DNA of 64,000 bases from Caulobacteraceae bacterium (GTDB taxonomy: Bacteria > Pseudomonadota > Alphaproteobacteria > Caulobacterales > Caulobacteraceae). Positions within the stretch are counted from its first letter, which is position 1, and each line of letters starts with the position of its first letter. The notes under the pieces are model-generated. The model ran no database searches and had not been told where the DNA came from. It saw nothing but the letters and a program-made list of their open reading frames with translations. The stretch lies in contig JAIESL010000035.1 of the NCBI GenBank assembly GCA_019746095.1, forward strand, positions 1 through 64,000, given 5' to 3'. The translations under genes and the position numbers were made by a program. Below are positions 17,797 to 31,334 of this stretch, in pieces.

Positions 17797-19893
17797 TCAG
17801 CGAACCTCCAGGTCGAGCGCCCGGGCGATGCTGCTCCAGGGGATGTATTTGTAATTCTGAAGCTCGCCCGGAAGCACGTTCCGCCCGTCCTGGGCGATCA
17901 TGGCACCGTGTTCGAACCCGGGCCCCAGATTGGCGCTGGTGACCTCAAGACCATCCGTTTCGGAGACGCCGTCGATGCCTGAACGCGCATCAGCGACCAC
18001 GGCGAACGATCCCAGATAGGCCTGGTCACCCTCCCGCCGATAGACGGCATAGGTGTTGTTGCCCTGGCTTGAAGCGATCAGATAGCCGCGACCGCCGCCC
18101 AGGTCATAGAGGCCAATGCCCTCCATATCGTCCTTGATGGCCGGGTTGGTGTCGACCCGGTCCACCGCGATCATGGCGTTCCCGCCGTCCGGCTCGGCAC
18201 CCAGGCGCCACAGGCCAACATCTTCCTCATTGACGAACAGGACGCCGGTCTCGTCATCCGCCACACAGCCTTCGACCTGCGACTCGAAGGCAAAGTCGCG
18301 CACCCGTTCGGCCCGCACCCGCCCGTTGCCAGCGTCGATCAGTTCCCACTGCCGCTTCTCGCCATTGCTGTCGTTGATGAAGACAAAGGACTTGCCGGAC
18401 CGCGGGCTGCGATACAGGCACAGGCCGTAGGGGTCGCCCTGGCCTGTCGGCTGCAGGCCATCCGCGATATCGACGAGCTGACGATTCACTGTGTCCAGAC
18501 GATAGAGGGCGATCGACTTGCGGGTCCGGTCGCTGGCGGCGACCAGAACGATCGGCTCTCCGCCCAGCATGAAACCGGTCCTCAGGTCGACATTGTTCAT
18601 CTTGCCGTCCGGCAGATGCTGAACCACCCGCCCCTGCATGTCGTAGAGATAGAGGCCCGACTTCTTGTCGGTGGCCACCACCAGACTGGCCGCAGGATCG
18701 ACCGGATTGGCCCAGATCGCGGGATCATCGGCGGCATCGCCATGGCTCAGCACCGGCACGGTCTCAAACGTCGCGACAACTGTCGGGACCGGAGCAAGGG
18801 CGGGGGCCGCCGACCCGCGCGGCGCCCCGGCCCGCAGGTTCAGCGGCCCGGCCAGTTCGGTGATGGAGACCAGTTTGTAGTCGGCCCCGGTTTCCGCATC
18901 CTCGTCGGCCGCCAGCAAACCGCCGGCCGGCAGGCCAGGCCCCATGGCCGTGCCAGTCGCAAACAGGCCGCCGGGTTCACCGACCAGGGCACCGGACGGT
19001 GCGGCGATCCGGGCCATTCCGATCCAGGCATCATCGGCGTCGCGGTCATAGGCATAGAGGCGACCGCCCGAGGCATCGGACGCGATCAGATAGCGGGCTC
19101 CGGCACCGCCGTCATACAGCGCCACCCCGCCCACCTCTTCCGAAATCCGGCCCAGACGGGGGGCATCGATCAGGACAGGTGTCGCGTCGGTCTCGGGGTC
19201 GCCGTTGAATCGCCAGATGCCGACCGCCTGTTCGGACACGTAGACCTGGCCCGTCGCGTCGTCGGCGACACAATGCTCGGCCGGCGAGGGAAGACCCAGA
19301 CGACGGCTCTGCCGGCTGTCGACCCGGCCCTGGTCATTGATGAAAACCAGCTGCTGATCGAACTCCCCGCCGTCTCCGACCGCGATCACATAGAGACCAC
19401 CGTCCGAAGCGTTGCGCAGAAAACAGACACCCTCGACCGCAAAACCCAGCGGGACAGAGCGGGCCCCGACCTCGCTGAGGGTGCCCCCGCTCATCGCGAA
19501 ATAGCGCAGGCTGTTGTCGGTGACATCCGTGGAGACGATCAGGGTTGTGGACCGCCCGGCGAGGTCGAAGCCCTGCCGGACATCGAGACTGGCGGCCTCT
19601 CCCGCCGGCGTTGAGCCCAGACGCTGACCGGCCAGGTCATAGACCTCCAGGCCCCCCAGTCCGGCCGAGCCGACAATGCGGCCGGCGGGGGGGTCGCTGG
19701 CGTCCTGCAGCAGCACCGCCTTGTTGACCTGACCCAGGGCAGCGGCCGTCGTAGCCACCATCGCTCGAACCGTGGCGGGCTCAGACGCGGCGACCGGCCC
19801 GGTTTCCGTCGTGGCGGTGGCGCAGGCCGAAAACCCACACATCGCCGCCGCCAAGCCCATCGCGTACACAAACTTCCCTGACCGCCGCTGCAT
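17797..19893 (-). CDS. Beta-propeller phytase, tandem dual domain
   Basis: 698 aa; two homologous halves (DVRQGFDLAGRS...VADDATGQVYVSEQAVGIWRF...GARYLIASDASG and DLRTGFMLGGEP...VADDETGVLFVNEEDVGLWRL...GRGYLIASSQGNNTYAVYRR). Confidence 0.85.
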   Translation of the reverse strand: MQRRSGKFVYAMGLAAAMCGFSACATATTETGPVAASEPATVRAMVATTAAALGQVNKAVLLQDASDPPAGRIVGSAGLGGLEVYDLAGQRLGSTPAGEAASLDVRQGFDLAGRSTTLIVSTDVTDNSLRYFAMSGGTLSEVGARSVPLGFAVEGVCFLRNASDGGLYVIAVGDGGEFDQQLVFINDQGRVDSRQSRRLGLPSPAEHCVADDATGQVYVSEQAVGIWRFNGDPETDATPVLIDAPRLGRISEEVGGVALYDGGAGARYLIASDASGGRLYAYDRDADDAWIGMARIAAPSGALVGEPGGLFATGTAMGPGLPAGGLLAADEDAETGADYKLVSITELAGPLNLRAGAPRGSAAPALAPVPTVVATFETVPVLSHGDAADDPAIWANPVDPAASLVVATDKKSGLYLYDMQGRVVQHLPDGKMNNVDLRTGFMLGGEPIVLVAASDRTRKSIALYRLDTVNRQLVDIADGLQPTGQGDPYGLCLYRSPRSGKSFVFINDSNGEKRQWELIDAGNGRVRAERVRDFAFESQVEGCVADDETGVLFVNEEDVGLWRLGAEPDGGNAMIAVDRVDTNPAIKDDMEGIGLYDLGGGRGYLIASSQGNNTYAVYRREGDQAYLGSFAVVADARSGIDGVSETDGLEVTSANLGPGFEHGAMIAQDGRNVLPGELQNYKYIPWSSIARALDLEVR

Positions 19894-20003: not shown

Positions 20004-21260
20004 TCACCCTCGTTCGGCAGTGCCGAAACGCTCAATCCGGAACGGCGAGAGATCGATCGCGGGCTCCGCCCCCTGGGCAAGCGCGGCCGACAGTTCTGCG
20101 GTAATCGCGGCCATGGTCAGGCCGAGATGCTGGTGGCCGAAGGCGTAGAGGATGCGTGGATCGCGCTCCAGCTGGCCGATGGCGGGCAGATAGTCGGGCA
20201 GGGTCGGACGCGGACCCACCCACCGATCCGGCCGGGGGGAGAAGCCTATGCCGAGGTCGGCGAGCCTTCGCTCGAGCGCCTGCCATTTGCGGGCATCGCC
20301 CGGTGCGTCGGGCGAGCCGAACTCGACAAAACTGGAGGCACGAAGTCCGCTGGTGAAGCGCGACACCACCATCGAATGCTCCTCGAACACCGTGGGAGGC
20401 AGGGTCTCATCCCAACCGTGCTCGGCGCTCTGCACCGAATAGCCGCGCTCGCCGATCACCGGGGCCGCGACGCCGAGATCGCGCATCAGCCGGCCCGCCC
20501 AGGCCCCGGCGGCGACCAGGGCACCGTCCGCTTCTCGCACACCCCCGCCGTCAAGATGTGCCGCGATCACCAAACCGGCGGAAAGACGGGTGACCCGGGC
20601 GTGAACCACCTCGCCTCCGACTGCCAAAAAGGCGGCCATGATGGCATTGCGCGCGGCCTGGGGCTCGCTGACCTGAGCCGTGCCGGAGAAGCGGATTCCG
20701 GCGACCGGTACCCGCGCCATCACCGCCGCATAGGGAGCGAGGTCGGCGGCCTGCATCGGCCGGAAGCCCGCACTCCCCGTCGGCGACCGTTCCCACCCCC
20801 GGAGGCCTTTTTCAGCGGCCCTCTCCGTCATCCAGACAATGGCGTGGCCATCGGGCCCGACGACGCCGGGCGCGCCGGAGAATTCCGCCAACCGGCGCCA
20901 GGCCGGCAGGGCATGGGCGAGAATGCTGGTCAGGGCCGCCTGCCCGCGCGCGTGCCGGCCGGGGTCCGAGGCCGCGATGAAGCGCAGCGCCCAGGGCCCC
21001 CAGAGGCCGGCGTCCCGCCAGCGGAAATCCAGCGGCCCTCCCAGACCGAACAGCCGGCCGGGAAAGGTACGCAGGCTCTCGCGCGAGGCCAGGGGCGAAA
21101 CCTGTTCGGCGGCGATGTGGCCAATGTTGCCGAACGAGGCCGCGCGGCGCGGATCGCCCGGGTCGATCAGGGTCACGGCAAAACCTGCTGCCTGCAGCCG
21201 CAGCGCCGAGGCGGCCCCGACCAGGCCGCCACCGATGACGAGATAGGACTTGGGCTGCAT
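20004..21260 (-). CDS. FAD-dependent D-amino-acid / D-hydroxyproline dehydrogenase (DadA family)
   Basis: N-terminal VIGGGLVGAASALRLQAAGFAVTLID; C-terminal YAFGHQHLGLTMAAITAEL; located in the hydroxyproline locus. Confidence 0.82.
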   Translation of the reverse strand: MQPKSYLVIGGGLVGAASALRLQAAGFAVTLIDPGDPRRAASFGNIGHIAAEQVSPLASRESLRTFPGRLFGLGGPLDFRWRDAGLWGPWALRFIAASDPGRHARGQAALTSILAHALPAWRRLAEFSGAPGVVGPDGHAIVWMTERAAEKGLRGWERSPTGSAGFRPMQAADLAPYAAVMARVPVAGIRFSGTAQVSEPQAARNAIMAAFLAVGGEVVHARVTRLSAGLVIAAHLDGGGVREADGALVAAGAWAGRLMRDLGVAAPVIGERGYSVQSAEHGWDETLPPTVFEEHSMVVSRFTSGLRASSFVEFGSPDAPGDARKWQALERRLADLGIGFSPRPDRWVGPRPTLPDYLPAIGQLERDPRILYAFGHQHLGLTMAAITAELSAALAQGAEPAIDLSPFRIERFGTAERG

Positions 21261-21286: not shown

Positions 21287-21298
21287 ATCGTATACGAT
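21287..21298. promoter_or_regulatory. Candidate GntR operator ATCGTATACGAT (copy 1)
   Basis: Perfect 12-bp palindrome between divergent dehydrogenase and DapA-family genes; identical to 25080-25091. Confidence 0.7.
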
Positions 21299-21329
21299 AA
21301 TGGCTTAAGTCACTGGAAGCGAGGACCCG

Positions 21330-22226
21330 ATGTCGATTTCCTGGGAGGGCGTAATCCCCGCCGCCACTACGCAGTTCTCAGCGGATTTCTCGATCGATTT
21401 TGACTCCACCGCCGAGGTGCAGGATGGGCTGATCCGGGACGGCGTGCACGGCCTGATCGTCATGGGCACCGTGGGAGAGAACAACTCGCTCGACGCCGAC
21501 GAGAAGCGCGCCATGCTGGCCGCAACCGTGAAGACCGTGGCCGGGCGCGTGCCGGTTATCGCCGGTGTCGCCGAACTGGACACCCGCCGCGCGGCGGCCT
21601 TCGCCCGCGACGCCGAGGCCATCGGTGCCGACGGCCTGATGGTCCTGCCGGCCATGGTCTATGTGCCGACCCAGGCTGAACTGGCCTCGCATTTCCGCAC
21701 TGTGGCCGAGTCCACGGGCCTGCCGATCATGCTGTACAACAACCCGCCGGCCTATCGGGTCAGCATCGGCTTCGAGGCCCTGCATGCCCTGTCGGACCTG
21801 CCCAATGTCGTCGCCCTCAAGGAGAGCGCCCCCGATACCCGCCGGTTCACGGACCTGCTGAACGAGTTCGGCGACCGCTATGTCCTGTTCGCGGGGCTGG
21901 ATGATGTGGCGCTGGAAGGCCTGATGCTGGGCGCCAAGGGCTGGGTCTCCGGCCTGACCAATGCCTTTCCCAAGGAGTCGCTGGCCCTGTGGGATGCCTT
22001 CAAGCGCGGCGACATGCAGACCGCCCTGGCCATCTATCGCTGGTTCATGCCCCTGCTGCACCTCGACGCTGATCATGACCTGGTCCAGTCGATCAAGATC
22101 GCCGAACAGGTCATGGGACGCGGTCACGAACGCGTCCGCCCCCCGCGCCATCCGCTGGTCGGTGCCCGCCGGGCCGAGGTGATCGCCATGGTCGAAAAGG
22201 CCGCCGCCACCCGCCCGGTCCTCTAG
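21330..22226 (+). CDS. Dihydrodipicolinate synthase family protein, probable pyrroline-4-hydroxy-2-carboxylate deaminase
   Basis: DapA fold: GVIPAATTQFSADFSID, GLIVMGTVGENNSL, MLYNNPPAYRVSI, VALKESAPDTRR. Specific function assigned from neighbourhood. Confidence 0.85.
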   Translation: MSISWEGVIPAATTQFSADFSIDFDSTAEVQDGLIRDGVHGLIVMGTVGENNSLDADEKRAMLAATVKTVAGRVPVIAGVAELDTRRAAAFARDAEAIGADGLMVLPAMVYVPTQAELASHFRTVAESTGLPIMLYNNPPAYRVSIGFEALHALSDLPNVVALKESAPDTRRFTDLLNEFGDRYVLFAGLDDVALEGLMLGAKGWVSGLTNAFPKESLALWDAFKRGDMQTALAIYRWFMPLLHLDADHDLVQSIKIAEQVMGRGHERVRPPRHPLVGARRAEVIAMVEKAAATRPVL

Positions 22227-22227
22227 G

Positions 22228-23229
22228 ATGGCCCGGCACGTCTTCCGCTGCATCGACGGTCACACCGCCGGCAATCCCGTGCGGCTGGTGATCGAAGGCG
22301 CGCCAGAGCTGACCGGCGACAGCATGAGCGCCCGGCGGCAGGACTTCATGGCGCGCTACGACTGGATCCGGACCGGCCTTTGTTTCGAGCCCCGCGGACA
22401 CGACATGATGAGCGGCGGCTTCCTCTATCCGCCGACGACCCCGGAGGCCGATGTCGGCATCCTGTTCATCGAGACCAGCGGCTGTCTGCCGATGTGCGGC
22501 CACGGGACCATCGGCATCATCACCTTTGCGCTGGAGCACGGACTGATCACCCCGCGCATACCGGGCAGGGTCATCGCGGAGGTCCCGGCCGGCACGATCG
22601 AACTGGACTATGTGCAGGACGGAGCTCGCGTCCGTTCCGTGCGCATCCGCAACGTCGCCTCCTGGCTCGACAAACAGGGCATAGAGATCGAGGTGCCGGA
22701 CTTCGGCCCTCTCACGATCGATGTGGCCTATGGCGGAAATTTCTATGCCATCATCGAGCCGCAGGGCCCCTACCCCGGGCTGGACGCCCTCGGGGCCGCG
22801 CGCATCCTCCAGCTTTCGCCGGTGATCCGCTCGCTCCTGCGCGAAACCTTCACCCCGGTGCATCCACTCGACCCGACCATTCGCGGCGTCTCCCACCTGC
22901 TCTGGGCGGACGTACCGAAGGGCGAGGGGGCAGACGGGCGCAATGCCGTCTTCTATGGCGACAAGGCCATCGACCGCAGTCCCTGCGGCACCGGCACCTC
23001 CTCGCGGCTGGCACATCTGCATGCCACCGGCCGCCTGCCGGTCGGCCAGGCCTTCGTCCACGAGAGCTATATCGGCAGCCGGTTCACCGGTCGCGTCGAA
23101 GCCGAGACAGAGGTCGGCGGCCGGCCCGCCATCATTCCCTCGGTCGAGGGCTCGGCCATCGCCACCGGCCTGAACGAGATCTGGATCGACGACGAAGACG
23201 TCTTTGCCCACGGCTTCCAGGTCGTCTGA
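22228..23229 (+). CDS. 4-hydroxyproline 2-epimerase (proline racemase family)
   Basis: IDGHTAGNPVRLV; TSGCLPMCGHGTIGIITFALEHG; DRSPCGTGTSSRLAHLHATG (two catalytic Cys motifs). Confidence 0.92.
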   Translation: MARHVFRCIDGHTAGNPVRLVIEGAPELTGDSMSARRQDFMARYDWIRTGLCFEPRGHDMMSGGFLYPPTTPEADVGILFIETSGCLPMCGHGTIGIITFALEHGLITPRIPGRVIAEVPAGTIELDYVQDGARVRSVRIRNVASWLDKQGIEIEVPDFGPLTIDVAYGGNFYAIIEPQGPYPGLDALGAARILQLSPVIRSLLRETFTPVHPLDPTIRGVSHLLWADVPKGEGADGRNAVFYGDKAIDRSPCGTGTSSRLAHLHATGRLPVGQAFVHESYIGSRFTGRVEAETEVGGRPAIIPSVEGSAIATGLNEIWIDDEDVFAHGFQVV

Positions 23230-23231
23230 GG

Positions 23232-23882
23232 ATGTCGTCCCGCGCGCCGCGCCCGCTGCCGGATCAGGTTCTTGCCGAGGCGCGGGAGCGGATCCTGTCC
23301 GGACGTCTGGCGGCTGATACCCCCATCCGTCAGGACGCCCTGGCGCTCGAACTGGGGGTCAGCAAGATCCCCCTGCGCGAGGCCCTGGCACGGCTGGAGA
23401 GCGAGGGACTGGTCGTCTCCCATCCCAACCGCGGCTACATCGTCCGGCCGCTGTCGCGCACCGACGCGGAAGACGTCTTCGACCTTCGTCTGCGCATCGA
23501 ACCGAACGCCTGCGTTCTCGGCGCTCTCGGCGCGGATCAGGCCGCCCGGGACGCAGCCTGCGCCGCCCTGGCTGCGCTCGACACCGCACTGCGCGACGGG
23601 TTGGCCGATGTCGGTCGGCGCAACCGCGAATTCCACCTGGCGCTGGTTCGTCCCTCCGGTCGTGATGTCACCATCGAGACCGTCGACCGGCTGCTGGCCC
23701 TGTCGGAACGCTATGTGCGGGTGCATCTCGGCGAGCACCGCCGCCTCGACCGCGCCAGCCACGAGCACGGGATCCTGCTCCAGGCCTGGCTTGAGCGCCG
23801 GACCGAAACGGTGCGTCGCGAAGCCCGCGCCCACATCCGCGCGACCCTGTCGGACCTGCGCGCCCAGTTGCCGGAGGTCTAG
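23232..23882 (+). CDS. GntR-family transcriptional regulator (FCD C-terminal domain)
   Basis: MSSRAPRPLPDQVLAEARERILSGRLAADTPIRQDALALELGVSKIPLREALARLESEGLVVSHPNRGYIVRPLS. Start at ATG 23232; the track ORF extends this frame back over the epimerase gene. Confidence 0.9.
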   Translation: MSSRAPRPLPDQVLAEARERILSGRLAADTPIRQDALALELGVSKIPLREALARLESEGLVVSHPNRGYIVRPLSRTDAEDVFDLRLRIEPNACVLGALGADQAARDAACAALAALDTALRDGLADVGRRNREFHLALVRPSGRDVTIETVDRLLALSERYVRVHLGEHRRLDRASHEHGILLQAWLERRTETVRREARAHIRATLSDLRAQLPEV

Positions 23883-25051
23883 CCGGCGGGCCAGGCCGGG
23901 ACGTCGGCGAACGGATCATCGAGACTGTGCTGGGGCCGGGTGAACCACTGCGGCCCGGCGTCGGTCATGTGGAAATGATCCTCCAGCCGTACACCGAACC
24001 GGCCCGGTACGACGATCATCGGCTCGTTGGAGAAACACATGCCCGTCGCCAGCGGGGTGGCATCGCCCTTCACCAGATAGGGCCCCTCGTGGATGTCCAG
24101 ACCGATGCCGTGGCCCGTCCGGTGCGGCAGTCCGGGCCGGCTGTAGCCAGGGCCGAAGCCATCCGCCTCCAAAGACCGCCGGGCCGCTGCATCGACGGCC
24201 TCGCAGGCAAGTCCGGGCCGGGCGGCATCAAAAGCCGCGGCCTGGGCCCGCTTCTCGGCCTCCCAGACGCGGCGAACCTCGGGCGTCGCCTCCCCGAACA
24301 CATAGGTGCGGGTGATGTCGGAGCTGTAGCCGTCGATCCGCGTGCCGGTGTCGATCAGCACCACATCGCCGGACTGTAACGCCCTGTCGCCCTCCCCGCC
24401 GTGCGGCAGGGAGGTGTCCTCGGCGAAGGAGACGATGCAGAAGGAGTTGCCCGATCCGCCCAGGGCACGATGCTGCTCGTCGATGAAGCGGATCACCTCC
24501 GAGGCGCGCTGGCCGGCATGGAGCGTTTGGCGGGCGCGCCGGTGAACCTCGATCGTGATGGCTTTGGCGTGGGACATCAGGGCGATCTCGGCGGGCGATT
24601 TACGGCTCCGCAGGGCATGTATCAGCGGCCCGGCATCAGCGAGGCGGGCATCGTCAATCTCGCCGCGCAGGCTGCGGTACATGGCCAGCGCCATCCGCTC
24701 ATCGACCGCCATCCGGCCGGCGGGCCCGATCCGGTCGGCGACCAGACGCCAGGGGCTCTCGTCTTCCTCCCAGGTCAGGACCTCACCCGGCAGGCTGATC
24801 AGCCCCTCGATCTTCTCCAGCTCAAACTGCGGCGTGATGTAGTCGAGTCCGCCCGACGCATGGACCATGGCCCCCACCAGGCGTTCGGAGGCGTACCAGT
24901 CGATACCGGTGAAATAACGCAGGCTCGACGTCGAGCCGAGCAGCACGGTCCCGACCCCCGCCGCCTCCATCCCGCGCCTCAGCCCCGCCAGACGTCCCTG
25001 TCGCTCGGCCACGCCAATCGGTGCGGGCACCGTTGCTGACACGCTGACCAT
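23879..25051 (-). CDS. M24-family Xaa-Pro aminopeptidase/dipeptidase
   Basis: VVLIDTGTRIDGYSSDITRTYVFG, GLPHRTGHGIGLDIHEGPYLV, CFSNEPMIVVPGRFGVRLEDHFHMT metal-ligand motifs. Confidence 0.9.
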   Translation of the reverse strand: MVSVSATVPAPIGVAERQGRLAGLRRGMEAAGVGTVLLGSTSSLRYFTGIDWYASERLVGAMVHASGGLDYITPQFELEKIEGLISLPGEVLTWEEDESPWRLVADRIGPAGRMAVDERMALAMYRSLRGEIDDARLADAGPLIHALRSRKSPAEIALMSHAKAITIEVHRRARQTLHAGQRASEVIRFIDEQHRALGGSGNSFCIVSFAEDTSLPHGGEGDRALQSGDVVLIDTGTRIDGYSSDITRTYVFGEATPEVRRVWEAEKRAQAAAFDAARPGLACEAVDAAARRSLEADGFGPGYSRPGLPHRTGHGIGLDIHEGPYLVKGDATPLATGMCFSNEPMIVVPGRFGVRLEDHFHMTDAGPQWFTRPQHSLDDPFADVPAWPAG

Positions 25052-25079
25052 GGCCCGCTCCGTCGTCGCTGGATTGAGT

Positions 25080-25091
25080 ATCGTATACGAT
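25080..25091. promoter_or_regulatory. Candidate GntR operator ATCGTATACGAT (copy 2)
   Basis: Perfect 12-bp palindrome between divergent M24 peptidase and TauE/SafE genes; identical to copy 1. Confidence 0.7.
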
Positions 25092-25130: not shown

Positions 25131-26000
25131 TTGGTCCTGACAATTCTGCTGACGGCCCTGACCCTGCTGGCGACGGTCTTCGTCGTCGTGCTGGGGCGCG
25201 CTGCCCTCAAACGCGGGACCGGCACACCCCGACCCGAGGCCGTCATCCTCGGTGCCGTCGCCAATTTCTTCGACACCCTCGGCATCGGCTCCTTCGCCCC
25301 GACTACGGCCTGGCTGAGGTTCCGCAAGATGACGCCCGACAGCTTCATCCCCGCGACCCTGAATGTCGGCCACGCCCTGCCCACCATGGTGCAGTCGGCG
25401 GTCTTTCTCGTGCTGCTGGGCGTACATGTCGACCCCATGCTGCTGGTCTCCTGCATCATCGCAGCCGTCGCCGGGGCCGTGGTCGGGGCACCGCTGATGG
25501 TCCGGGCCCCGGTTCGGGTGGTGCAGGCGATAGTCGGCGTGGCCCTGCTGATCGCCGCAGCCCTCTATGCCATGAGCAATCTGGACCTGATGCCCATCGG
25601 CGGGACCGCCACCGCGCTGGCGCCCCGCCTGATGTGGATCGCTATCGCCGGCCATTTCATCATGGGCATGCTGATGTCGTTCGGGATCGGCCTCTACGCC
25701 CCGGCCCTGATCATGCTCAGCCTGCTGGGCCTCGACCCGCGCCTGGCCTTCCCGATCATGGCAAGCGCCTGCGCCTTCCTGATGCCGACCACCGGTTTCC
25801 GCTACATCAACGCCGAGCGCATCGACCTGCGGATCGTCATCGGCATCGCGCTGGGCGGCATACCCGCCGTTCTGGTCGCGGCCTTCCTGGTCAAGGAAAT
25901 GCCGATCGAGCCTTTGCGCTGGGCCGTCGTGGTCGTGGTCCTCTACGCCGCCGCCCTGCTGCTGCGGACAGCGGCCAGGGGGGATGCCGCGAAGGCCTAG
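25131..26000 (+). CDS. Sulfite exporter TauE/SafE family membrane permease
   Basis: Multiple TM segments; ILGAVANFFDTLGIGSFAPTTA. Start set at TTG 25131 preceded by AAGGGGGAAAG; the track start 25050 would place the operator inside the CDS. Confidence 0.8.
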   Translation: MVLTILLTALTLLATVFVVVLGRAALKRGTGTPRPEAVILGAVANFFDTLGIGSFAPTTAWLRFRKMTPDSFIPATLNVGHALPTMVQSAVFLVLLGVHVDPMLLVSCIIAAVAGAVVGAPLMVRAPVRVVQAIVGVALLIAAALYAMSNLDLMPIGGTATALAPRLMWIAIAGHFIMGMLMSFGIGLYAPALIMLSLLGLDPRLAFPIMASACAFLMPTTGFRYINAERIDLRIVIGIALGGIPAVLVAAFLVKEMPIEPLRWAVVVVVLYAAALLLRTAARGDAAKA

Positions 26001-27986: not shown

Positions 27987-28062
27987 GACGGTGTCCTAGG
28001 AACGGAGACGTTCGGATGCCGTCGATATGCCATGGCTTTTCTGCTCTTGCGATGCCACGATA

Positions 28063-28089
28063 TGCGCAATCATTGTGCATTTTTGCACA
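28063..28089. promoter_or_regulatory. Overlapping inverted repeats upstream of lysR
   Basis: TGCGCAAT-C-ATTGTGCA (28063-28079) and TGTGCA-TTTT-TGCACA (28074-28089), directly before SD GGAGGGG and GTG 28099. Confidence 0.5.
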
Positions 28090-28098
28090 GGAGGGGCG

Positions 28099-28998
28099 GT
28101 GGCCGATTTCAACTGGAACGACCTGCGTGCCTTTCTCGCTGTGGCCCGGTCCGGACGGCTGACCTCGGCCGCAGCGCGGGTCGGGATGGACCATACGACG
28201 GTGGCCCGGCGCATCGCAGCGCTTGAGGAGGGCTTGGGGGCGCGACTGTTCGACCGAAGCCCCCAGGGCTATGCCCTCACGCCACACGGCGAACGGCTGA
28301 TGCCGACGGCAGAGAAGATCGAGAGCCTGACCCTGCTGGCCGCCAATGAACTGGGTGAGGCGGACCAGGCCCTGTCCGGCACGGTGCGGATCGGGGCCCC
28401 CGAAGGCTTCGGCAGCTATGTCCTCGCCCCCCTCATGGCGAAGCTGGCCGACAGACATCCCGGACTGGACATCCAGCTGGTGGCCATTTCGGGTGTGCTC
28501 AGCCTGTCCAAGCGCGAAGCCGATATCGCTGTGACGCTCAGCGCACCACGCGAGGGACGGCTGATCTCGCGGAAGCTCACCGACTACGGCCTCAGCCTCT
28601 ACGCGGCTCCCGCCTACCTCGATGCCCGCCCGCCGATCCGGACCCGCACCGACATGGCCGGCCAACGCTTCATCGGCTACATAGGCGACCTGCTCTACGC
28701 TCCCGAGCTCGACTATATGCAGGCGCCGGACGTCGACATTCATGTCGCCCTGCAGAGCTCCAACCTCATCGCCCAGCTTCAGGCGACCCTCGCCGGTGCC
28801 GGCCTCTGCGTCCTGCCGGACTTCATCGCCGCACGGGAGACCGGACTGCGGCGGGTCCTGCCCGACGCCGTCCACCTGGACCGCAGCCTTTGGCTGGTGA
28901 CCCATGCCGATCTCAAGCCGCTGGCCCGCATCCGGGCTGTGACGGCGATGATCGTCGAGGCGGTCAAGGCCGACCGAGCCATGTTCACAGGCGGCTAG
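28099..28998 (+). CDS. LysR-family transcriptional regulator
   Basis: VADFNWNDLRAFLAVARSGRLTSAAARVGMDHTTVARRIAALEEGLGARLFDRSPQGYALT; GTG start with strong SD. Confidence 0.9.
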   Translation: MADFNWNDLRAFLAVARSGRLTSAAARVGMDHTTVARRIAALEEGLGARLFDRSPQGYALTPHGERLMPTAEKIESLTLLAANELGEADQALSGTVRIGAPEGFGSYVLAPLMAKLADRHPGLDIQLVAISGVLSLSKREADIAVTLSAPREGRLISRKLTDYGLSLYAAPAYLDARPPIRTRTDMAGQRFIGYIGDLLYAPELDYMQAPDVDIHVALQSSNLIAQLQATLAGAGLCVLPDFIAARETGLRRVLPDAVHLDRSLWLVTHADLKPLARIRAVTAMIVEAVKADRAMFTGG

Positions 28999-29036: not shown

Positions 29037-31334
29037 ATGTCCTTGGAACGCGCTGTCAGAAGCATCGCCGTGGTCGGAGCCGGGCCCGGTGGCCTGTACC
29101 TCGCCATTTCCCTCAAGCTGCGCGATCCGTCGCTGGATGTCATCGTCCACGAACGCAACCGCCCGGACGACACCTTCGGCTGGGGCGTGGTCTTCTCCGA
29201 CCAGACCCTGGCCAATCTCAAGGCCAATGACCCCGAGACAGCGGCGCTCATCGAGGCCGCCTTCGTCCACTGGGACGACATCGATGTGCACATCCACGGC
29301 CAGACCGTCCGGTCGGGTGGACATGGATTCGCCGGCATCGGCCGGCAGCGCCTGCTGACCATCCTGCAGGAACGCGCCCGCTCGCTCGGGGTCGAACTGA
29401 GGTTCGAGGATGAGGTCGCCGACATCCGCGCCCTGCCCGCCGACGTCATCGTCGCCGCCGACGGCCTGAACAGCCGCATCCGCAACGATCACCCCGAGGT
29501 CTTCGGCGTCGACATCGACGTCCGGACCAACAAATACATCTGGCTGGGCACGAAACAGTCATTCGATGCCTTCACCTTCGCCTTTGTCGAGACCCCGCAC
29601 GGCTGGATCTGGGCCCACGCCTACCAGTTCGAGCCGGGAGCCTCGACCTTCATCGTCGAATGCTCCGAGGCGACCTGGCGCGGCCTCGGCTTCGACGTCA
29701 TGGACCAGGACCAGACCTGCCGGGCGGCCGAGGGCCTGTTCGCGGACTGGCTGGGCGGCCATGCCCTGATGAGCAATGCCCGGCACCTGCGCGGTTCGGC
29801 CTGGCTCAACTTCCCGCGCGTCGCCTGTTCCAACTGGCGCGACGGCAAGATCATCCTGCTGGGTGACGCCGCCCACACGGCGCATTTCTCCATCGGCTCC
29901 GGGACCAAGCTGGCCTTCGAGGATGCCATCCGGCTGGCCGAGACCCTGACCGAAGCCGATGACCTGGATGCGGGCCTCGCCGCCTATGAGGCCGAGCGAC
30001 GGGTCGAGGTGCTCAAGCTGCAGAGTGCGGCCCGCAACTCCACCGAATGGTTCGAGACCATCGACCGCTATGTCGGCCTCGACCCCCTGCAGTTCACCTA
30101 CAGCCTGCTGACCCGCAGCCAGCGCGTCAGCCATGAGAACCTGCGTCTTCGCGACCGTGACTTCCTGACGGGCGTCGAACGCTGGTTCGCCGACAGCGCC
30201 GGCGCTTCGTCCACGGACATTCCGCCGCCGCCCATGTTCGCGCCACTGACGCTGCGCGGCCTGACCCTGCCCAACCGCGTCGTCGTCTCGCCCATGTGCA
30301 TGTACTCGGCCGAGGACGGCCTGGTCGACGACTTCCACCTTGTGCACCTCGGCAGCCGGGCGCTGGGTGGCGCGGGGCTGATCTTCACCGAAATGACCGA
30401 CGTCGCCGCCGATGCCCGCATCACGCCGGGCTGCGCGGGGATGTACCGCCCGGAGCATCGCGACGCCTGGCGGCGGATCGTCGACTTCGTTCATGCCCAG
30501 GGATCGCGGGTCGCCATCCAGCTGGCCCATGCGGGCCGCCGCGGATCAGTCGAACGGCCCTGGGGCCCCCGCGCAGATCAACCTCTCGAGGACGGCTGGC
30601 CCCTGATCGCCCCCTCCCCCGTTCCGTGGACGGACAGGGACCAGACACCGCGCGAAATGAACCGGGCCGACATGGGCCGCGTGCGCGACGACTTCGTCCG
30701 GGCGACGCGCTGGGCCGACGAAGCCGGCTTCGACATGGTCGAGCTGCACTGCGCTCACGGCTATCTGCTCTCGTCCTTCCTGACCCCCCTCTCCAACCAC
30801 CGCACGGACGAATACGGCGGCCCGGTCGGGAACCGGCTGCGTTTCCCGCTTGAGGTCTTCACCGCCATGCGCGCCGTCTGGCCGCAGGACCGGCCGATGT
30901 CCGTGCGACTGTCCGCGACCGACTGGGTCGATGACGGCCTGACGCCTGAGGACTCCGTCATCATCGCCCGCGCCTTTGCGGACGCCGGCTGCGACCTGAT
31001 CGATGTCTCGGCCGGATCGACCACACCCGATGCCCAGCCCGTCTATGGCCGCATGTTCCAGACCCCGTTCAGCGACCGCATCCGCAACGAGGCGGGCGTG
31101 GCGACCATCGCCGTCGGCAACATCTACGAGACCGACCACATAAACAGCATCCTCGCCGCCGGCCGGGCCGACCTGTGTGCCCTTGCCCGGCCTCATCTGG
31201 CCGATCCCAACTGGAGCCTGCGTGCGGCCGCAGAACTGGGCTGGAGGGGGATCCGGCCGCCGGTCCAGTATCTCGCCGGCTTCGCCCAGCTGGCCCGGAA
31301 CCTGGAGAGGCAGCAGCAGGCGGGGCCGGTATGA
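29037..31334 (+). CDS. Bifunctional FAD monooxygenase / OYE-type NADH:flavin oxidoreductase (2-aminobenzoyl-CoA monooxygenase/reductase or salicylyl-CoA 5-hydroxylase type)
   Basis: 765 aa fusion: N-terminal FAD monooxygenase ([42 protein letters not shown]) and C-terminal old-yellow-enzyme domain ([57 protein letters not shown]). Confidence 0.88.

Follow-up and report, generated by a model that had tools for sequence, protein, structure and literature searches.

Two identical palindromes as candidate operators of a VanR-type GntR regulator at a Caulobacteraceae hydroxyproline locus

Two kinds of described system come close to the locus analyzed here. Atu1419 of Agrobacterium fabrum is a VanR-type GntR regulator with an FCD domain that controls the degradation of hydroxycinnamic acids; its zinc is held by Asn137, His141, His192 and His214, its structure has been solved on DNA (PDB 6za3), and its binding sites are ATGTATACAT palindromes that coincide in part with -10 boxes in two promoter regions, its own among them (PMC7797058). 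Hydroxyproline genes are the targets of FCD GntR proteins named HypR. In Sinorhizobium meliloti HypR is a negative regulator for which hydroxyproline is the inducer, and predictions of HypR regulons extend to 13 taxonomic groups of Proteobacteria, of which three are alphaproteobacterial (PMC5343134). HypR of Streptomyces coelicolor (SCO6294) recognizes the operator CTNTGC(A/C)ATGTCAC, whose symmetry is unclear, and acts as an autoregulated repressor (PMC6608401). The subject of this report is a 64,000-nucleotide stretch of DNA (the window; contig C136) from the 3.05-Mb draft genome of a Caulobacteraceae bacterium whose nearest named relatives belong to Brevundimonas. In the window, a hydroxyproline gene cluster with its own FCD GntR gene contains two copies of the 12-bp palindrome ATCGTATACGAT.

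The reading favored here, to which we give a probability of about 0.9, is that the VanR-type FCD GntR protein acts as a repressor on these two putative operators, controlling all six genes of the locus and thereby itself, and that a metabolite of the pathway relieves the repression. A dimer of the protein would bind each ATCGTATACGAT at its GTATAC core, with one half-site per subunit, and would thereby block two divergent pairs of promoters: those of the dehydrogenase gene and the deaminase-epimerase-gntR operon at the first site, and those of the M24 peptidase and TauE/SafE genes at the second. With gntR inside the deaminase operon, the protein would set its own level, and hydroxyproline or a pathway intermediate, bound in the putatively metal-containing FCD domain, would cause release from the DNA. 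Repression is inferred from the position of the sites, from the rhizobial HypR (PMC5343134) and from Atu1419.

The resemblance to Atu1419 extends to the DNA, since here too the local catabolic cluster of an FCD GntR protein has GTATAC-centered palindromes, identical to each other, in two of its promoter regions. The outer bases differ, however, being those of ATGTATACAT for Atu1419 and ATCGTATACGAT here. A first-pass annotation of this DNA had proposed that FCD regulators bind GTATAC-type palindromes, and Atu1419 provides a documented case (PMC7797058). Operator 1 lies at 21287..21298, midway between the divergent dehydrogenase and deaminase genes, and operator 2 at 25080..25091, between the divergent M24 peptidase and TauE/SafE genes (neither is assigned a strand). 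Both positions held on re-reading, as did the spacings of 27, 32, 29 and 40 nt that separate the sites from the starts of the dehydrogenase, deaminase, peptidase and TauE/SafE genes, respectively.

Within the genome, the palindrome occurs only at this locus. Pattern searches found exactly two copies of ATCGTATACGAT in the window and the same two in the entire genome, and none with one mismatch anywhere in the 3.05 Mb; the many scattered copies that the first-pass annotation had set against its own model were thus looked for and not found. Matches with two mismatches occur at about 30 places genome-wide, with the GTATAC core broken in all but one, and the looser pattern WTNGTATACNNW has only one further occurrence. 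This third GTATAC place, TTCGTATACCAT on contig C117, lies about 220 bp ahead of a 354-aa reading frame and overlaps another reading frame; it has no visible link to hydroxyproline and was taken as a chance match. The palindrome is rarer than originally claimed (0.004 expected copies in 64 kb at equal base composition): with the actual G+C content of 67.6%, chance would supply 0.0004 copies of a 12-mer with these bases in the window, and 0.019 in the genome. The window contains 27 perfect palindromes of at least 12 bp, and ATCGTATACGAT is the only one that occurs twice. The two copies have dissimilar flanks and so are not parts of a duplicated segment.

The genes around the two sites, assigned from Pfam and NCBIfam, fit a hydroxyproline pathway. 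Operator 1 sits inside the 69-bp gap between a flavin adenine dinucleotide (FAD)-dependent oxidoreductase of the DAO family (20004..21260, minus strand; PF01266), the probable D-hydroxyproline dehydrogenase, and a DHDPS-family lyase (21330..22226, plus strand; PF00701), the probable 1-pyrroline-4-hydroxy-2-carboxylate deaminase. These two proteins have family-level matches only, and their hydroxyproline roles are deduced from the cluster. The deaminase gene is followed on the same strand by 4-hydroxyproline epimerase, a proline racemase family member (22228..23229; NF010578, 527.6 bits against a cut-off of 376), and by the GntR regulator (23232..23882); the spacings of 1 and 2 bp suggest that the three form one operon, with gntR as its last gene. 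Converging on gntR, with a 4-bp overlap, is the gene for an M24 family metallopeptidase of the creatinase/prolidase type (23879..25051, minus strand; PF00557 and PF01321), a probable prolidase-like supplier of hydroxyproline. Beyond operator 2 lies the gene for a TauE/SafE family membrane protein (25131..26000, plus strand; PF01925), whose TTG start and upstream purine-rich stretch are kept in relatives. Because each operator occupies a divergent gap and the regulator belongs to the deaminase operon, two operators suffice to cover all six genes. Overlapping the right edge of operator 1 is the hexamer GATAAT (21296..21301, plus strand), found by direct reading and conserved in the window and five relatives; it may tentatively be taken as the -10 element of the deaminase operon, one that a strict consensus scan misses.

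Both palindromes are kept in five close relatives in which the regulator is 85-92% identical; in the alignment of these relatives the 12-mer is invariant in both gaps, where further blocks are conserved as well. Both copies are also present in named Brevundimonas loci (L084-L090). A second Brevundimonas lineage, with a regulator only about 50% identical and a different gene order, has kept both operator positions seen in the window, at the deaminase gene and between TauE and M24. The deaminase gene is preceded there by an exact or near-exact site, and the degenerate ATTGTATMTGAT occupies the orthologous place of operator 2. In that lineage an exact site is also found just upstream of an Ldh_2-family dehydrogenase gene, which in L058 is followed by an aldehyde dehydrogenase gene; no homolog of the Ldh_2 enzyme was found in the genome studied here. 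A TauE/SafE gene accompanies the hydroxyproline cluster in both Brevundimonas lineages despite their differing gene order, and it shares an operator region with the M24 peptidase gene; its product is a candidate transporter for the hydroxyproline pathway.

A wider survey, in which bacterial genomes were scanned with an alignment of the regulator, yielded 80 named loci, mostly from Sphingomonadales and Caulobacterales, with single loci from Rhizobiales, Parvularculaceae and Betaproteobacteria. A deaminase homolog, counted at 60% identity or more, is present in 60 of them. In 59 of these the deaminase gene has GTATAC in the 150 bp ahead of it, and every time the distance to the start is 35-49 bp. 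GTATAC has a background rate of 0.0185 per 150 bp across the loci, and the next most frequent palindromic hexamer is found in 19 of the 60; since the loci are mutually related, a nominal binomial probability for the GTATAC count is not to be taken literally. The sixtieth locus (L098) has, in a similar position, ATCGTATATGGT, which is one core base off. The 48 distinct sites from beyond the close clade yield the consensus TATCGTATACgnTAT. Where loci are rearranged, the sites follow the promoters, whether of the deaminase gene, the dehydrogenase/gntR pair, gntR alone or the Ldh_2 gene; when gntR is divergent from the dehydrogenase gene, one site lies between them and another upstream of the distant deaminase gene. 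Site, regulator and hydroxyproline genes occur together in Caulobacterales, in Sphingomonadales and in a few further lineages. When 101 related genomes were divided by the presence of the regulator, 11 of the 12 with an orthologue (49-100% identity) contained the exact 12-mer, against 8 of the 89 without one (Fisher p = 5e-9). One locus was inspected in each of these eight regulator-less genomes, two of which (G037 and G081) hold additional copies; the 12-mer is mostly embedded there in extended hairpin-like palindromes, and in one case lies within overlapping reading frames. At several such places (L072 1501 and 1634, L080 1501, L083 1501) it often forms the center of a longer perfect palindrome. 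Taken together, conservation, co-occurrence and promoter-following sites support the first-pass proposal that the local GntR protein would control the six genes through two operators.

Several observations weigh against this reading or limit its reach. A strict sigma-70 scan found no promoters at either site. Outside the window's clade, the 150 bp next to the start of the M24 gene mostly lack a site; in many of these loci the gene is found just downstream of the dehydrogenase gene. Eight of the nine members of a Sphingomonas paralogue clade, which lie away from hydroxyproline genes (L099, L106, L115, L118, L125, L127, L136, L144 and L157), have no GTATAC nearby, even though their helix-turn-helix stretch is almost the same as that of the regulator. 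Finally, the final pathway enzyme appears to escape. A likely alpha-ketoglutarate-semialdehyde dehydrogenase gene on another contig (C108) probably completes the pathway, and its product is 84% identical to the enzyme beside the operator-bearing Ldh_2 gene in L058. It was considered as a further target and rejected, the best upstream match to the operator having four mismatches. The proposed control would thus reach the six local genes and not the entire pathway: with the aldehyde dehydrogenase gene unlinked and lacking an operator, only the early steps would belong to the local regulon.

The protein itself is compatible with the proposed role. It matches the GntR winged helix-turn-helix (HTH) domain PF00392 with 54.3 bits and the FCD domain PF07729 with 59.5 bits, both above cut-off. 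FCD domains of the FadR type have seven helices, and those of the VanR type six. The AlphaFold2 model of the regulator has six FCD helices in residues 76-212, with a predicted local distance difference test score (pLDDT) of 88.8, and on this model the protein is a VanR-type FCD GntR regulator. Consistent with this assignment, ATCGTATACGAT near the gene, with its conserved GTATAC core, has the GT(N)xAC form of VanR-type operators, and the structural neighbors of the model include PmiR, Atu1419 (with and without DNA), McbR and AlkR. The Foldseek match to Atu1419 has about 27% identity. Metal-binding FCD proteins hold their metal with an Asp or Asn and three His; N131, H135, H179 and H201 of the regulator, residues that do not vary among 12 sequences, are likely the counterparts of the four zinc ligands of Atu1419. 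Where the operator is kept, the HTH stretch VSKIPLREALxRLE shows little or no variation, whereas the whole proteins are only about 50% identical. The nearly identical stretch in the Sphingomonas clade, which mostly lacks GTATAC nearby, means that the HTH alone is no proof of specificity; the protein evidence is compatible with a shared specificity, and the assignment of regulator to site rests on co-occurrence and position.

It is unlikely, though worth weighing, that the GntR protein is mainly an activator, or represses one promoter of each pair and activates the other. Such behavior has a precedent in Streptomyces, where deletion of hypR lowers the activity of one target promoter and activator-like site positions have been discussed (PMC6608401). 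The sites here, however, are 27-40 bp from the start codons, where an overlap with -10 or start-site regions is probable, much as the Atu1419 sites overlap -10 boxes (PMC7797058), and in rhizobia HypR has been described as a negative regulator with hydroxyproline as its inducer (PMC5343134).

Less probable still is that a different factor binds the palindromes while the local GntR protein acts elsewhere. The genome encodes only two FCD proteins, and the second, on contig C130, could be such a factor, as could a regulator of amino acid catabolism encoded away from the locus; the Sphingomonas paralogues, with their near-identical HTH away from hydroxyproline genes, illustrate that related proteins could share a specificity. 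Against this stand the co-occurrence of the 12-mer with orthologues of the local regulator and the lack of an exact site in the examined neighborhood of the second FCD gene (L171). Furthermore, in Duganella and in a metagenome-assembled genome from the Burkholderiaceae (L129 and L120), a stand-alone gntR gene carries its own site about 40 bp upstream, as autoregulation would predict. A role as a hairpin in RNA or at a terminator, or as some other repeat without regulatory function, is very improbable: the copies in regulator-less genomes mostly do have that look (for example CCGATCGTATACGATCGG), but the palindrome here has no loop and its symmetry stops at 12 bp, both copies are flanked by divergent rather than convergent genes, a terminator scan at both sites found none, and conservation tracks promoters across several families.

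Returning to the repressor model, the comparison with HypR is one of function more than descent. As in S. meliloti, where the GntR gene of the hyp cluster (L166) was taken as hypR, an FCD GntR gene is clustered with genes for hydroxyproline epimerase, dehydrogenase and deaminase. The two regulators are only 29.6% identical over 196 aa and occupy separate places, on long branches, in the tree, so that the pair described here would work like HypR but does not qualify as orthologous to it, the protein being a VanR-type FCD member. Another S. meliloti GntR protein is closer (40.8% identity); it was rejected as a HypR candidate, its gene lying beside TRAP transporter genes and not hyp genes. The rhizobial cluster also differs in having an ABC transporter and neither M24 nor TauE/SafE genes. 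Inspection by eye of the cluster on pSymB (L166 2390-3376 and 5870-7830) found TTTGTCGACAAA-type palindromes near hypR and the deaminase gene, and some GTATAC elsewhere in the cluster. Sequences like TTGTATAC occur close to the genes for the aldehyde dehydrogenase and the ABC transporter of the same cluster, and the two kinds may reflect a mixed set of HypR operators. The Streptomyces protein is likewise an FCD GntR repressor of hydroxyproline genes, but the operator in the window, unlike that of SCO6294, is a fully symmetric palindrome.

The regulatory wiring looks ordinary, and the exact operator-regulator pair looks undescribed: no literature naming the operator was found in searchable papers, a search that left supplements and RegPrecise outside its range. 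An evenly balanced proposition is that in Caulobacterales and Sphingomonadales the control of hydroxyproline catabolism passed to a VanR-type FCD GntR clade that is separate from rhizobial HypR and uses an operator of its own, ATCGTATACGAT, and that the Brevundimonas regulon gained the peptidase and TauE/SafE genes. If so, the Brevundimonas regulon would include a separately controlled peptidase, and TauE/SafE would be a candidate carrier for the pathway. On the repressor model, an operator and a regulon can be assigned to regulators named only 'GntR family' in many Caulobacterales and Sphingomonadales genomes, and an uncharacterized TauE/SafE membrane protein and an M24 peptidase would be linked to hydroxyproline use. 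So clean an operator-regulator pair might also serve as a hydroxyproline sensor.

Elsewhere in the window, a 765-aa protein encoded at 29037-31334 has an FAD-binding monooxygenase domain fused to an NADH:flavin oxidoreductase (OYE) domain, and its gene is adjoined by a LysR regulator gene (28027-28998). A 698-aa protein encoded at 17797-19893 has two phytase-family (PF02333) stretches and is apparently a tandem beta-propeller phytase.

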